Assembly: GCA_009837395.1 (NCBI GenBank)
Contig: VXTP01000029.1
Span: 1-64,000, forward strand
Direction: 5' to 3'
Origin: Gemmatimonadota bacterium
GTDB lineage: Bacteria; JAAXHH01
Length of the DNA: 64,000 bases
Shown here: one piece after another, positions 24,797 through 62,327 of the stretch
How positions within the stretch are numbered: position 1 is the stretch's first letter
How the letters are laid out: every line of letters begins with the position of its first letter
Made by a program: the position numbers and the translations under genes
The notes under the pieces: generated by a model
Told to the model about the DNA's origin: nothing
Database searches by the model: none
What the model saw: only the letters and a program-made list of their open reading frames with translations

Positions 24797-25612
24797 TTAG
24801 CTGTCGTGAGGCCGCGCACGGTCCCGTTCCTGCAGCCATGATTCGGCCGCCGACAGCTGCTCCGGGGTGTTGATCCCCATGGATTCTTCCGGCACGCCGG
24901 CCGGTGCGTCTGCGATGCGTCGGCCCTCCCTCCGGAGGATCCCGATCGTGTCCGTCAGGTAGTATTCGGCCTGCCGGTTCTCCGGGGTCAGCCGGTCCAG
25001 GGCCCGCAGCAGCAGGACCGGATCGAAACAATAGGTGCTGGTGTTGATCTCCTTGAGCGCCCGCTGTTCCTCGGTGGCGTCCTTCTCCTCTACGATCCGG
25101 TCGATACGGCCAGCGTCGTCGCGCAGGATGCGTCCCAGGCCCGTGGGATCGGCGACGTGGGCGGTGAGTACGGAGGCCGCGGCGCCGTCCCGTCGGTGCA
25201 CTTCGATCAACGACGCCAGGGTGGAAGGACGGATCAGGGGCGTGTCGCCGGCGAGGACGAGGACGACCCCGCTTTCGCCGGCCAGCAGCGGTCCGGCCTG
25301 GCGCACCGCGTGGCCGGTGCCCAATTGCTCCTCCTGCACGGCGAATTCCACGGCCAGCCTTGTCGGCCCGGTCGGCCCGGTCGGCTCGGGCAGTTCGGGC
25401 AGTTCGGCCAGTTCCCACCGCACCGCGCCGGCCTGGTGGCCGACGATGACGATGATCCGCCGCGGCCGGAGCGCCCGCGCCGTGTCCAGCACGTAGTGAA
25501 TCATCGGCCGGCCGTTTATCCGGTGCAGCACCTTCGCCAGATCGGAATGCATCCTGGTGCCTTTTCCCGCGGCCAGGACCAGCGTAATCAGATCGCCGTT
25601 GGCTTCTTTCAT
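24797..25612 (-). CDS. GlmU-type nucleotidyltransferase, stand-alone N-terminal domain
   Basis: 271 residues. LVLAAGKGTRMHSDLAKVLH is the pyrophosphorylase signature, and GTGHAV, VLAGDTPLI and the C-terminal MGINTPEQL match the UDP-GlcNAc pyrophosphorylase half of GlmU. The left-handed beta-helix acetyltransferase half is missing: bacterial GlmU is about 450 residues. It may make UDP-GlcNAc or another UDP-sugar. A non-conserved insert, ELAELPELPEPTGPTGPT (residues 67-84, DNA about 25360-25415), comes from short tandem repeats. It lies 11 bp downstream of folK. Confidence 0.85.
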   Translation of the reverse strand: MKEANGDLITLVLAAGKGTRMHSDLAKVLHRINGRPMIHYVLDTARALRPRRIIVIVGHQAGAVRWELAELPELPEPTGPTGPTRLAVEFAVQEEQLGTGHAVRQAGPLLAGESGVVLVLAGDTPLIRPSTLASLIEVHRRDGAAASVLTAHVADPTGLGRILRDDAGRIDRIVEEKDATEEQRALKEINTSTYCFDPVLLLRALDRLTPENRQAEYYLTDTIGILRREGRRIADAPAGVPEESMGINTPEQLSAAESWLQERDRARPHDS

Positions 25613-25623
25613 CGGGGCTCCGG

Positions 25624-26118
25624 TTACGGCTCGGCGAGAAAGCGGACGAGATGGTCCACGGGTTTCAGGTCATCCAGCAGGTCGGACACGGTCCGCCCGT
25701 GCACCGGGTGGACCCGGTCCGGCTGGATCTCCGCCAGGGGAACGAGCACGAAGGCCCGTTGCGCCATGGCGGGATGGGGAATGTCGAGACCCGGCCGTCT
25801 GAGTGCCAGGTCGTCGTAAAGCAACAGGTCGAGATCGATTTCGCGTGGTCCTTTTTCCCACGTCACGGAACGTCCCATGCGCGTTTCGACGTCCTTGAGC
25901 GTTTCGAGGAGTCCTTCGGGCGCAAGCGTGGTGTCCAGAAGGGCCGCGCCGTTGACGAAGTCGGGCTGGCCGGCGTGACCTACCGGCTGCGTCTCGTACC
26001 ATGACGAGCGCCTGACGATCCGGATCGCCTCCCGCCCGGCCAGTTCGCATAGCGCCTGCCGGCATCTCGCGACGCGATCCCCGATGTTGCTGCCCAGTCC
26101 CAGCGCGACAGACGCCAT
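25624..26118 (-). CDS. folK: 2-amino-4-hydroxy-6-hydroxymethyldihydropteridine pyrophosphokinase
   Basis: 164 residues. Transfers pyrophosphate from ATP to the pterin in folate synthesis. ALGLGSNIGDR, the GPREIDLDLLLYDD active-site segment and IPHPAMAQRAFVLVPL are canonical. ATG 26118 is set by AAGGAG 7 bases upstream. It follows folB (dihydroneopterin aldolase), the previous pathway step, across a 150-bp spacer packed with 9-bp repeats. Confidence 0.93.
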   Translation of the reverse strand: MASVALGLGSNIGDRVARCRQALCELAGREAIRIVRRSSWYETQPVGHAGQPDFVNGAALLDTTLAPEGLLETLKDVETRMGRSVTWEKGPREIDLDLLLYDDLALRRPGLDIPHPAMAQRAFVLVPLAEIQPDRVHPVHGRTVSDLLDDLKPVDHLVRFLAEP

Positions 26119-26130
26119 TTCGCTCCTTGC

Positions 26131-26262
26131 GGTCCGCATAGTCCGCTTGGTCCGCTTGGTCCGCCTGGTCCGCTTGGTCCGCCTGGTCCGATTAGTTCGG
26201 TCCGGTACATCGCGATCCGGTACGCCGCGGTCCGGTCCGTCCGGTCCGGCAGGTCACGGACC
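26131..26262. repeat. 9-bp minisatellite filling the folB-folK spacer
   Basis: Seven consecutive 9-mers of the form ggtccgcNN run from 26131 to 26193, followed by a less regular ggtccggtac-like array to 26262. The array occupies nearly the whole spacer between the two folate genes. Confidence 0.9.
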
Positions 26263-26268
26263 GGAACG

Positions 26269-26643
26269 TCACGCCTCCCTGCTACGATGCACGGTGACCC
26301 CGGGGGTTCCCGAATGCGGCAATTCCGCGGCCACACCGGGCTTCCACAGTCTGACCACGACCTGGTCCACAGGAGGGTAGGCGGAAAGCAGCTCGTCCGC
26401 CACCCGGCCGGCGACCGCCTCCAGCAGACGGCACGGCTCGCCACCGAGGACGCGTCCCACGCGCCGGCAGACGTCCGCGTAATCCACGGTATCGGACAAT
26501 CGGTCCGTCCGGGACGCCTCCGACAGGTCCAGACGCAGTGCGACGTGGGCTTCGAAGACCTGTCCCCGCGTCCGTTCCCGGGCCGTCACGCCATGATGGC
26601 CGAATGTGCGGATACCCCGCACGCTGATCCAGTCTCCGGACAT
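26269..26643 (-). CDS. folB: Dihydroneopterin aldolase
   Basis: 124 residues. Splits dihydroneopterin to the hydroxymethyl-pterin used by FolK. IRTFGHHGVTARERTRGQVF (substrate-binding N-terminus), DTVDYADVCRRV and the LLEAVAGRVADELL helix are typical. It starts 20 bp after the aminotransferase-like gene's stop and precedes folK. Confidence 0.92.
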   Translation of the reverse strand: MSGDWISVRGIRTFGHHGVTARERTRGQVFEAHVALRLDLSEASRTDRLSDTVDYADVCRRVGRVLGGEPCRLLEAVAGRVADELLSAYPPVDQVVVRLWKPGVAAELPHSGTPGVTVHRSREA

Positions 26644-26663: not shown

Positions 26664-27938
26664 TCAGGCCAGACTGACCGCGGGGAACGCCCGTTTGCGC
26701 AAACGGAACCGCGACATCTGCCGGTCGATGCGGTCGAGCGCTTCACGGATCTGCGACTCGTCGCCGTTGAAGGCTATTCGGACGTATCCTTCGCCGTATT
26801 CGCCCAGGTATGCGCCGGGCACGACGAACACGCCCGCCTTGCGCAACAGGATGCTGAATCGTACGGAGGAATAGCGGGGCGGTACGGGTAGCCAGACGTA
26901 AGGTCCGCCGCCAGGCGCGGGCAGGTGCCAGCCGAGGTCCCGCAGCCCCGACACCATCAGGTCCCTTTGCGAACCGCACCGGGAAACCATGGCTTCCACG
27001 TGCCGGTCCAGACGGGGAAACTCCGCGGCCGCGGCCGCGAGAAGGCCGGGGAGCAGCGGGGCATGCAGATGGGAGGTCAACTGGGAGATGGCGGCCAGCG
27101 CAGAAGGATTGCCCACCGCAACGCCCAGGTCGCGGAACATGCCGCCGGGCAGCACAGAAAGGGAGAACAGCTCGATGCCCACGTTCATCGCGCCGGGCGT
27201 CTGCAGGAGGCTCGGGGCTTCGACCCCGTCGTACGTCAGGAAATGCTGCGTCGCGTCGTGACAGACGATGATATTGTGCCGGCGTGCGAAATCGATGAGT
27301 TCCCGGAAGAATGAATGGTCCGCCACGACCCCGGTCGGGTCGTTAGGAAAACCGACGTACATCAGTTTTGCCTGCCCGGCGATCCGGGATTCGATCTGCT
27401 TCAGGTTGGGCAGGAAATCGTTCCGCCCGTGCAGGGGATAGGACTGGATCTGCCCGTTCGCCAGCACGGCGCTGGTCCGGTACGCCGGGTGGGAGGGGTC
27501 GGGCGCCAGCACGGTTTCACCGGGGTTGACCAGCGCCATGGCCACGCAGGCCGGGCCGACCGCCGAACCCGCGAAGGGCAGGACGTGCCTGTCCGGATCG
27601 ATCTCTACGTCGAACCGGTACGCGAACCAGTTGCTGAATGCCCTGCGGAATTCCGCGCCGGTGAGCCGGGATGGCTCGGCCGGTACTTCCGGTCCGCCTG
27701 GGCCGCCTGGACTGCCTGGGCTGCCTGGGCCGCCCCGGCCGCCGGTGGCCGATTCGGAGTCGGATGTCCTTACAATGGCATCCTGTCGCGGGGGAGAGTC
27801 GGTGAAGCCCGTGGTCAGATCTATGGGCTCGATCCCCCTGGCGGCCAGTCTTCTTAAGTATCGGGAATGTTCCAGGGGCCGGTTCAGCGGGATCTGGTGA
27901 AGCCGTTCCGCGCGTTCTATCACCACCGGGTTTCTCAT
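26664..27938 (-). CDS. Fold-type I aminotransferase homologue lacking the PLP lysine
   Basis: 424 residues with the class I/II aminotransferase layout: PFAGSAVGPACVAMAL, PDPSHPAYRTSAVL, VGFPNDPTGVV (usual NPTG site), VCHDATQHFLTYDG and a C-terminal ARG-type tail. Where active enzymes have S-L/F-S-K before the G-W-R motif, this protein reads SLSV (Val262) then LPGGMFRDLGVAVGN; the Tyr after the conserved Asp228 is also replaced. Without the lysine no internal aldimine can form, so classical transamination is unlikely. A collagen-like insert (GPGSPGSPGGPGGP, about residues 70-83) follows the N-terminal region. The start is placed at ATG 27938 because the longer frame crosses the groEL terminator. 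Confidence 0.8.
   Translation of the reverse strand: MRNPVVIERAERLHQIPLNRPLEHSRYLRRLAARGIEPIDLTTGFTDSPPRQDAIVRTSDSESATGGRGGPGSPGSPGGPGGPEVPAEPSRLTGAEFRRAFSNWFAYRFDVEIDPDRHVLPFAGSAVGPACVAMALVNPGETVLAPDPSHPAYRTSAVLANGQIQSYPLHGRNDFLPNLKQIESRIAGQAKLMYVGFPNDPTGVVADHSFFRELIDFARRHNIIVCHDATQHFLTYDGVEAPSLLQTPGAMNVGIELFSLSVLPGGMFRDLGVAVGNPSALAAISQLTSHLHAPLLPGLLAAAAAEFPRLDRHVEAMVSRCGSQRDLMVSGLRDLGWHLPAPGGGPYVWLPVPPRYSSVRFSILLRKAGVFVVPGAYLGEYGEGYVRIAFNGDESQIREALDRIDRQMSRFRLRKRAFPAVSLA
27691..27743. repeat. 9-bp repeat encoding a Gly-X-Pro stretch in the aminotransferase homologue
   Basis: About six imperfect copies of a 9-mer of the type ggNcNgcct (minus: GGC-GGC-CCA). In frame it gives repeated G-[G/S]-P triplets. 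Confidence 0.85.
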
Positions 27939-28020
27939 GGTCGCTCCGTCGCCCTGGACCTGTCTTTCGCATCCGCCGCCGATCTCGGGGGAATATAGAA
28001 TCGGCGACCGTCCGTAGCAA

Positions 28021-28052
28021 GAGAAAACCCCCGGTGAAGCCACCGGGGGTTT
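28021..28052 (-). terminator. groEL rho-independent terminator
   Basis: A perfect 12-bp stem AAACCCCCGGTG / CACCGGGGGTTT (28025-28036 and 28041-28052) with a 4-base loop, followed on the minus strand by TTTTCTCTT. It lies 45 bp past the groEL stop. Confidence 0.9.
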
Positions 28053-28096
28053 ACCTGCAACCGGTCGGGGACCGGTTCCTTTTCGAAGCGTCCCGC

Positions 28097-29719
28097 TTAG
28101 TACATGCCGCCGCCGTGAGGCATGGCCGGAGGCGGGGTGTCTTCGGGGAGTTCCGCCACCAGCGCTTCGGTGGTCAGCAGCAGGCCTGCGATGCTCGCGG
28201 CGTGCTGCAGCGCAACGCGGGAGACTTTGGCGGGCTCGATCACGCCCGTTTCGGACATGTCGCCGTAGGCATCGGATTCGAAGTTGTAACCGAATCCGCC
28301 TTCGCCTTCCCGGATCTTCTGCAGGATGATGGAACCCTCCAGGCCGGCGTTCTCCGCCAACTGCCTGACGGGCGCCTCGAGCGCCTTGTGCACGATGCCG
28401 GCGCCAACGGCTTCGTCGCCCTCGGTGTCCAGTCCGTTGTCCAACGCGGAGAGCGCGCGGATGAACGTGACGCCGCCGCCCGGCACGACCCCTTCCTCGA
28501 TGGCCGCCTTGGCGTTGTTGAGGGCGTCTTCGACCCGGGCCTTCTTTTCCTTCATCTCGGCTTCCGTCGCGGCGCCCACGTTGATGACCGCCACGCCGCC
28601 CGCCAGCTTGGCCAGGCGTTCCTGCAGCTTCTCCCGGTCGTAATCGGAGGTGGTTTCCTCGATCTGGGCGCGGATCTGGTTGATGCGTCCCTGGATCGCG
28701 TCGGTGCCGCCGGCGCCTTCGACGATCGTCGTGTTGTCCTTGTCGAGGTTGACGCGCTTGGCCGTACCCAGGTCGCCCACGGTCACGTTTTCCAGCTTGA
28801 AGCCGGCGTCCTCGGAGATGACCGTGCCGCCGGTCAGGATGGAGATATCCTCGAGCATGGCCTTACGGCGATCACCGAACCCGGGCGCCTTGACCGCGGC
28901 GACCTTCAGGGTGCCGCGAAGCTTGTTGACCACCAGCAGGGCAAGGGCCTCGCCCTCGATGTCCTCGGCGATGATCAGCAGCGGGGAGCCGCTCTGGGCG
29001 ATCTTCTCGACGACGGGATAGATATCCTTGACGGCGCTGATCTTCTTGTCGTGAATCAGGATTTTCGTGTCCTCGAGTACGGCTTCCATGGACTCGGAGT
29101 CGGTAACGAAGTAAGGCGACAGATAACCGCGGTCGAACTGCATGCCCTCCACGACGTCAAGGGAGGTTTCCATGCTCTTGGCCTCTTCGACCGTGATGAC
29201 GCCGTCCTTGCCCACTTTTTCCATCGCGTCCGCGATCAGGTCGCCGATGGCGGCGTCGCCATGGGCTGAAACGGTGGCGGTCTCCGAGATTTCCTTCCGT
29301 CCTTCCACGGCCTTCGACATTTCAGCGATCGAACCGACCACCGCGGACACCGCCTTGTCGATGCCCCGCTTCAGGTCCATGGGATTGGCGCCGGAAGTCA
29401 CGTTCCGCAAGCCTTCCGCGTAAATGGCCTGGGCGAGCACGGTGGCCGTGGTCGTCCCGTCGCCGGCCACGTCACTCGTCTTCGACGCGGCTTCCTTGAT
29501 CATCTGGGCGCCCATGTTTTCGTAGTTGTCCTCGAGTTCGATTTCCTTCGCCACCGTGACGCCGTCCAGCGTGAAGGTGGGCGAACCGAATTTCTTGTCG
29601 AGCACGACGCAACGTCCCTTGGGACCCATGGTGACACGGACCGCGTCAGCCAGGGTGTCCACGCCTCGTTTGAGGGCCTGCCGGGCATCGGCGTCGAATG
29701 AAAGTTGTTTTGCTGGCAC
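28097..29719 (-). CDS. groEL: Chaperonin GroEL
   Basis: 540 residues. ATP-binding [14 protein letters not shown] and [11 protein letters not shown], catalytic Asp region and [19 protein letters not shown] are canonical. The C-terminus is AMPHGGGMY rather than the repeated GGM tail. The start is GTG 29719 after a GGGGG-type ribosome-binding site. No groES is adjacent on either side, which is unusual because groES normally precedes groEL. Expression should be heat-responsive through HrcA because the promoter carries a CIRCE element. It is monocistronic, with a strong terminator. Confidence 0.96.
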
Positions 29720-61433: not shown

Positions 61434-62327
61434 ATGGAAACGACAATCCGTCCCGTCTCCGTCGTGATTCCCACCTATAACCGGGAAGACCGGCTGCCGT
61501 CGGCGATCCGGTCCGTCCTGGAACAGTCGGCGCCGCCGGCCGAGATCATCGTGGTCGACGACGGTTCGACGGACGGTACGCCCGCCCTCGTCCGCACTTT
61601 TCCCGGTGTGCGGTACCTTCGGCAGGAAAACCAGGGCGTGAGCGCGGCCAGGAATCACGGCATCGACGCGGCGAAACACGATTGGATCGCCTTGCTCGAT
61701 TCCGACGACGAATGGCTTCCCCGCAAGCTGGAAAGACAGTGGAGCGCGCTGGAACGGGATCCGCGATTCAGGTTCTGCCACACCGATGAGATCTGGATCC
61801 GCAAGGGCAGGCGGGTCAATCCGATGAAAAAGCACGCCAAGTACGGCGGACACATCTTCCATCATTGTCTGCCCCTGTGCGTCATTTCCCCTTCTTCCGC
61901 GCTGATACATCGTGATCTGTTCGAACGCTTCGGCATGTTCGACCCGGAACTGCCGGTGTGCGAAGACTACGATCTGTGGCTGCGCATCTGCGCGCGGGAA
62001 CCCGTGCTCTACGTGGACGAACCTCTGCTGCTGAAGTTTGGCGGCCATGAGGACCAGTTGTCGCGCGCGCACTGGGGCATGGACCGTTTCCGCATACGCG
62101 CACTGGAGAAGCTGATTCAAAGCGGCGCCTTGGAAGACGAGGCCCTGACCGCCGCCCTGGATACCCTGTTCCTGAAAATCGACATTTACGCCGCCGGCGC
62201 GGAGAAGCGGCGCAGGTTCGAGGAAGCCGCTCGCTACCGGGACAAGAAACGGCGTTTAGCGGCCAGCCTGGCCAGCCTGGCCAGCCTGGTCAGCCTGGCC
62301 TGCAACGCCGGGACAGCGGGCAGCTGA
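61434..62327 (+). CDS. Glycosyltransferase family 2
   Basis: 297 residues, GT-A fold. SVVIPTYNREDRLPSAIRSV and IIVVDDGSTDGT bind the nucleotide sugar; the DxD equivalent is LLDSDDEW, and the acceptor/catalytic region is VCEDYDLWLRI. It lacks membrane helices, so it is a soluble inverting transferase of unknown acceptor. The C-terminal 15 or so residues are repetitive (ASL four times), made by four exact or near-exact 9-bp repeats. It follows the NtrC regulator by 37 bp but need not be in the same transcript. Confidence 0.9.
   Translation: METTIRPVSVVIPTYNREDRLPSAIRSVLEQSAPPAEIIVVDDGSTDGTPALVRTFPGVRYLRQENQGVSAARNHGIDAAKHDWIALLDSDDEWLPRKLERQWSALERDPRFRFCHTDEIWIRKGRRVNPMKKHAKYGGHIFHHCLPLCVISPSSALIHRDLFERFGMFDPELPVCEDYDLWLRICAREPVLYVDEPLLLKFGGHEDQLSRAHWGMDRFRIRALEKLIQSGALEDEALTAALDTLFLKIDIYAAGAEKRRRFEEAARYRDKKRRLAASLASLASLVSLACNAGTAGS
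62262..62297. repeat. 9-bp repeat, four copies, at the glycosyltransferase C-terminus
   Basis: gccagcctg at 62262, 62271, 62280 and gtcagcctg at 62289, in frame, encoding Ala/Val-Ser-Leu repeats. Confidence 0.93.

Follow-up and report, generated by a model that had tools for sequence, protein, structure and literature searches.

Can a protein of the aminotransferase fold that has no lysine at the cofactor position still be a transaminase and, if not, for what has its gene been kept? The question is raised by an open reading frame, here called psAT, in the window (the whole analysed stretch, 64,000 nucleotides of contig VXTP01000029.1). The frame is intact, with an ATG start preceded by a GGAG-like site, and a profile search places its product in the aminotransferase class I/II fold (PF00155, 7e-35). 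The best-scoring named families are the LL-diaminopimelate (LL-DAP) aminotransferases (TIGR03540; DapC_direct/PRK09276 type, NF006756). The TIGR03540 score of psAT, 279 bits, is about half the curated cut-off of 593, which leaves it outside that family; scores across the Lys-less clade range from 279 to 396 bits, so that even the highest member falls below the cut-off.

26664..27938, reverse strand: psAT, putative Lys-less pseudo-transaminase of the LL-DAP-aminotransferase type, 424 aa (from ORF, profile, alignment and model)
27672..27740, reverse strand: Gly-Pro-rich linker of variable length, aa 67-89, replacing the Tyr70-equivalent active-site loop; pLDDT below 50, probably disordered
26667..26714, reverse strand: C-terminal extension, aa 409-424 (SRFRLRKRAFPAVSLA), which most Lys-bearing homologues do not have

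Tandem repeats of period 9 occur in the window at 25362-25414, 26131-26190, 27694-27743 and 62261-62300, and three of them are clustered in or between genes of the psAT operon. The repeat within psAT encodes the Gly-Pro linker, whose length varies among species.

Loss of the lysine and of other cofactor contacts

The residues that bear on cofactor binding are as follows.

27153..27155, reverse strand: codon 262, GTG (Val), Schiff-base lysine position; Lys in 66/66 homologues outside the phylum and 0/15 inside
27129..27131, reverse strand: codon 270, GAC (Asp), equivalent of the PLP-phosphate Arg266; Arg in 66/66 outside, Asp or Glu throughout the clade
27246..27248, reverse strand: codon 231, CAG (Gln), Tyr225 equivalent by alignment
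27339..27341, reverse strand: codon 200, GAC (Asp), Asn194 equivalent; Asn in deeper relatives
27561..27563, reverse strand: codon 126, GCG (Ala), position of the lysine of the GSKEG phosphate loop; Lys kept in deeper relatives
27255..27257, reverse strand: codon 228, GAC, retained Asp222 equivalent by alignment
26778..26780, reverse strand: codon 387, CGA, retained Arg386 equivalent (substrate carboxylate) by alignment

A sequence-only reading of this locus had reported that the PLP lysine was lost, with SLSV standing for SLSK, and the wider comparison bears this out. Four solved structures (PDB 2x5d, 6l1l, 2o1b and 2dou) align with psAT, the closest by sequence being 2x5d and BacF (6l1l), and their SLSK is SLSV in psAT. 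All 15 phylum genomes with a complete gene have V, M, T, S, I or F at the site, and lysine stands there in 0/10 of the aligned clade rows. These genomes are that of the window itself, 11 others of its genus, and members of two further genera of the family and of another family; related contigs carry the label Candidatus Latescibacterota or Gemmatimonadetes. A sixteenth genome, G015, holds only a C-terminal fragment of psAT at a contig edge. One outside homologue reads SCSK and so does have the lysine. In a quick tree the Lys-less proteins are separated from the rest by a branch supported at SH-aLRT 100, and in a search of 384 genomes they score at least 695 bits while all others score at most 379 bits.

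Two ways in which that reading could have been wrong were a local base error and a different lysine at the PLP site. Orthologues with lysine would point to the former; there are none, and the GTG codon of V262 is two substitutions away from any lysine codon. As to the latter, a search of aa 240-300 of the window protein revealed no alternative lysine, and only one of the ten aligned clade rows has a lysine in this stretch, at a different and non-conserved position.

The loss of the Tyr after the conserved Asp had also been claimed and holds: the Tyr225 equivalent is Gln or His in 10/10 aligned clade rows versus Tyr in 66/66 outside homologues. It is clear, though, that the loss extends well beyond these two residues. 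The Tyr70 equivalent is gone clade-wide and, in the genus, the Gly-Pro linker, which is not constant in length, stands in place of its loop. In the KTYNMTGWR motif the clade has other residues for the Met and the Gly, and it shows an invariant Gly-Gly at 265-266. An arginine at 269 had been listed among the conserved landmarks, but in the alignment R269 falls opposite the Trp of GWR, and the phosphate arginine position is that of D270. An NPTG-like site was likewise said to be kept; the motif is indeed kept in part, but the Asn194 equivalent within it is D200 in the genus. Of the other landmarks named, Asp228 and the VAVGN motif are present as described.

The Asn194 equivalent and the GSKEG-loop lysine are both present in the three deeper relatives (G012, G013 and G014) and lost in the genus, so the cofactor site decayed in steps. 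The PLP-binding role of each residue is that of general aspartate aminotransferase and DapL knowledge. For DapL these roles are supported in part by published work (PMC7113581, PMC3102117); the conserved active-site residues of the V. spinosum enzyme are I43, G44, Y74, E77, K111, Y134, N189, N294 and R390 (PMC7113581). Against this list, with numbering correspondence being inferred, psAT keeps R387, Y153 and G44, and the genus has lost the Tyr at 88, the Lys at 126 and the Asn at 200; K111 of the V. spinosum protein would correspond to position 126 in the GSKEG loop. Taken together, these losses suggest that psAT binds no PLP and performs no transamination.

Selection and the predicted fold

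Within the genus the median pairwise dN/dS (NG86) is 0.20 for psAT, 0.27 for folK, 0.31 for folB and 0.06 for groEL; psAT is under purifying selection and is not decaying. By the same measure, the N-terminal arm (residues 1-44) stands at 0.08, the linker at 0.54 and the core at 0.17, and the C-terminal tail has a median dN of 0. The two ends of the protein are thus the most guarded and the old active site less so. A decaying pseudogene, or a sequencing or assembly error, might be suspected from the lost cofactor residues and the hypervariable linker, but a gene that is intact in 15 genomes, with nearly invariant ends and a valine codon two steps from lysine, makes such an origin scarcely credible. 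We reject a base error, another lysine at the site and a decaying pseudogene on the codon, the alignment and the dN/dS.

An AlphaFold model built on a 76-row alignment, 66 rows of which are Lys-bearing homologues, has a pLDDT of 86 and falls below 50 only in the linker (67-89) and the last residues; on the 14 clade sequences alone the pLDDT is 46. The top Foldseek matches of the model are BacF (TM 0.82) and then 2x5d. The aminotransferase fold is predicted to be intact, from an input alignment that consists mostly of catalytic homologues and favours that fold.

The Asp222 and Arg386 equivalents and the Tyr153 position are kept in psAT, so that some pocket remains, which is a point against the loss of PLP binding. 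Asp228 and Arg387 are invariant in the clade, F258, G265, G266, T288 and Y377 are newly invariant, and D270 is nearly so. Since these new residues lie near the old site in sequence, the cleft might have been reused for new chemistry, with psAT as a PLP-independent or other catalyst. We consider this unlikely, as the old lysine position varies freely among V, M, T, S, I and F and the strongest constraint is found at the N- and C-terminal ends, not in the cleft loops.

A catalytic residue has been lost clade-wide from a protein under purifying selection, and the assignment of psAT as a pseudoenzyme is, from these sequences, highly probable. The sequence-only reading had described an intact gene in a housekeeping neighbourhood, selected for a role other than transamination; the phylum-wide orthologues, the loss of most cofactor contacts and the low dN/dS support it in this, and a binding or regulatory protein, as it proposed, would be a reasonable expectation.

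Gene order, catalytic relatives and the diaminopimelate pathway

The neighbours of psAT are listed below.

28097..29719, reverse strand: groEL, conserved upstream neighbour (PF00118, conserved order)
28020..28060, reverse strand: terminator-like stem-loop followed by a T-run after groEL (-24.3 kcal/mol, z -5.4; not listed by the pattern scan)
27992..28020, reverse strand: sigma-70-like promoter TTGCTA-17-TATATT upstream of psAT (consensus match only)
26269..26643, reverse strand: folB, dihydroneopterin aldolase, next downstream of psAT (PF02152, conserved order)
25624..26139, reverse strand: folK, HPPK (PF01288, conserved order)
24797..25612, reverse strand: NTP-transferase family protein, next in the conserved order (PF00483)

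The order groEL, psAT, folB, folK, NTP transferase is found in all Latescibacterota loci examined, as far as the contigs reach. Given the stem-loop and T-run after groEL and the sigma-70-like promoter before psAT, psAT probably opens a folB-folK transcription unit.

Of 30 Lys-bearing homologue loci outside the phylum, 19 have the gene directly 5' of folK and in the same orientation (L036, L037, L039-L041, L045, L046, L049, L050, L089, L090, L092, L093, L096, L098 and L100-L103, with L039 and L100 being overlapping views of one gene). A folB match lies between the two genes in two of these, and groEL is upstream in one, as at psAT. When Lys-bearing folK-linked proteins were scored, 2/3 passed the TIGR03540 cut-off and 3/3 that of NF006756. 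Because Lys-bearing genes of DapL type stand 5' of folK elsewhere, psAT corresponds in position to a catalytic LL-DAP aminotransferase and was altered in place, not acquired. The DapL-type aminotransferase and folK form an old gene pair, the reason for which is not obvious; no literature on a dapL-folK pair was found, and likewise none for DapX-GpsB.

Besides psAT, no gene in the Latescibacterota genomes comes near the DapL model, except for part of a second DapL-type gene at a contig edge in G008 (L146, G008:C1:4-855, 360 bits). This genome has 6% contamination and the fragment is probably foreign. In the genome of the window psAT scores 275 bits on this model and the runner-up 205 bits, and the nearest paralogues are about 25% identical. 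The lysine motif was found in 17 of 19 other aminotransferase loci there (L005 and L011 being the same gene). It was not matched in two class I/II loci, L015 and L016, which may reflect a limit of the pattern or a real loss.

These counts bear on whether psAT, in the manner of LCB1 with LCB2, could pair with a catalytic aminotransferase chain in a PLP-enzyme heterodimer and, itself non-catalytic, supply residues to the partner's active site. Enzymes of fold type I form dimers whose chains share active sites (for DapL, PMC3102117), and the genome has many class I/II aminotransferases that keep the lysine and could serve as the partner. The absence of a close catalytic sibling, however, disfavours such an arrangement; moreover, the genus has a variable linker where a loop would have to enter the partner's active site, and the Tyr of this loop is lost clade-wide. 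A heterodimer of this kind seems to us distinctly unlikely.

The pathway that psAT would have served was also searched. G012, G014 and G015 have DapH together with DapB; both were undetected in all 12 genus genomes and in G013, and a search of seven genomes for DapD and Ddh detected neither. DapF is found in 7/16 genomes and MurE in 15/16. G012 and G014 have DapA, DapB and a MurE with DNPR, and by alignment the genus MurE also has DNPR. At another place in MurE the two genus proteins examined (L079, L080) read RGDT and the deeper ones KGHE or KGDE; RGDT may indicate a changed third peptidoglycan residue in the genus.

Might psAT then still be an LL-DAP aminotransferase that works without its lysine? 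It is the sole DapL-family gene in the phylum bar the one fragment, and DapA, DapB and the DNPR-type MurE of G012 and G014 would fit such a role. The same two genomes, however, carry DapH and hence an alternative route, DapB is undetected in the genus, which leaves the substrate with no obvious source there, and the Arg266, Tyr225 and Tyr70 equivalents have been lost as well; continued DapL activity is hardly tenable. Rather, basal members would make diaminopimelate by the acetyl route, through DapH, which would have rendered DapL activity dispensable, and the genus would later have lost this route. Since complete lysine pathways have been reported in sponge Latescibacterota genomes (PMC12993501), we keep this scenario conditional.

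Possible function and comparison with known systems

The explanation that we favour, at a probability of about 0.6, is that an LL-diaminopimelate aminotransferase of the DapL/TIGR03540 type became a PLP-free pseudoenzyme, in place, in the ancestor from which the sampled Latescibacterota descend, and was retained thereafter for a non-catalytic function. In this sponge-found phylum psAT very probably now does another, non-enzymatic job. As to what that job is, psAT might be a dimer that serves as a scaffold or binds a ligand, with FolB/FolK as its most likely partners; the conserved N-terminal arm and C-terminal tail might be partner contacts, and the old cleft, with Asp228, Arg387 and Tyr153 kept, could bind a small non-phosphorylated ligand. 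A folate partnership is a tentative proposal and on balance doubtful. The tie to FolB and FolK is one of gene order, which may be inherited rather than functional, and it is weakened because the pairing with folK is older than the lysine's disappearance. In a more specific form, the PLP-free fold would be a pterin/folate accessory that binds a pterin- or folate-like molecule in its cleft and links FolB with FolK; the removal of the phosphate grip, with the ring-facing Asp, the stacking Tyr and the carboxylate-binding Arg all kept, would suit such a ligand, and we regard this as a very unlikely refinement.

The psAT clade thus offers an ordered series of residue losses at an unchanged chromosomal position beside folK. 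Annotation by best hit would call psAT an LL-DAP aminotransferase and credit these organisms with a step that they probably do not perform. Pseudoenzymes have, to our knowledge, been studied in depth among kinases and proteases but seldom described among bacterial PLP enzymes; no comparable case was found in the open-access literature searched.

psAT resembles DapL (TIGR03540/NF006756) in being best matched by that named family, in fold and in its gene position before folB/folK; it differs in that its clade is below the cut-off and has no Schiff-base lysine, phosphate Arg or Tyr225 and Tyr70 equivalents. BacF (PDB 6l1l, 6l1n and 6l1o) and 2x5d are the closest solved structures by fold and sequence, but the PLP lysine is theirs and not that of psAT. 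SPTLC1/LCB1 is a fold-type-I chain of the PLP family that is without the lysine and is kept by selection. It forms part of the serine palmitoyltransferase heterodimer (PMC5650666). LCB1 has a close catalytic partner, LCB2, whereas none is visible for psAT; the likeness between them is that of Lys-less fold-type-I chains retained under selection.
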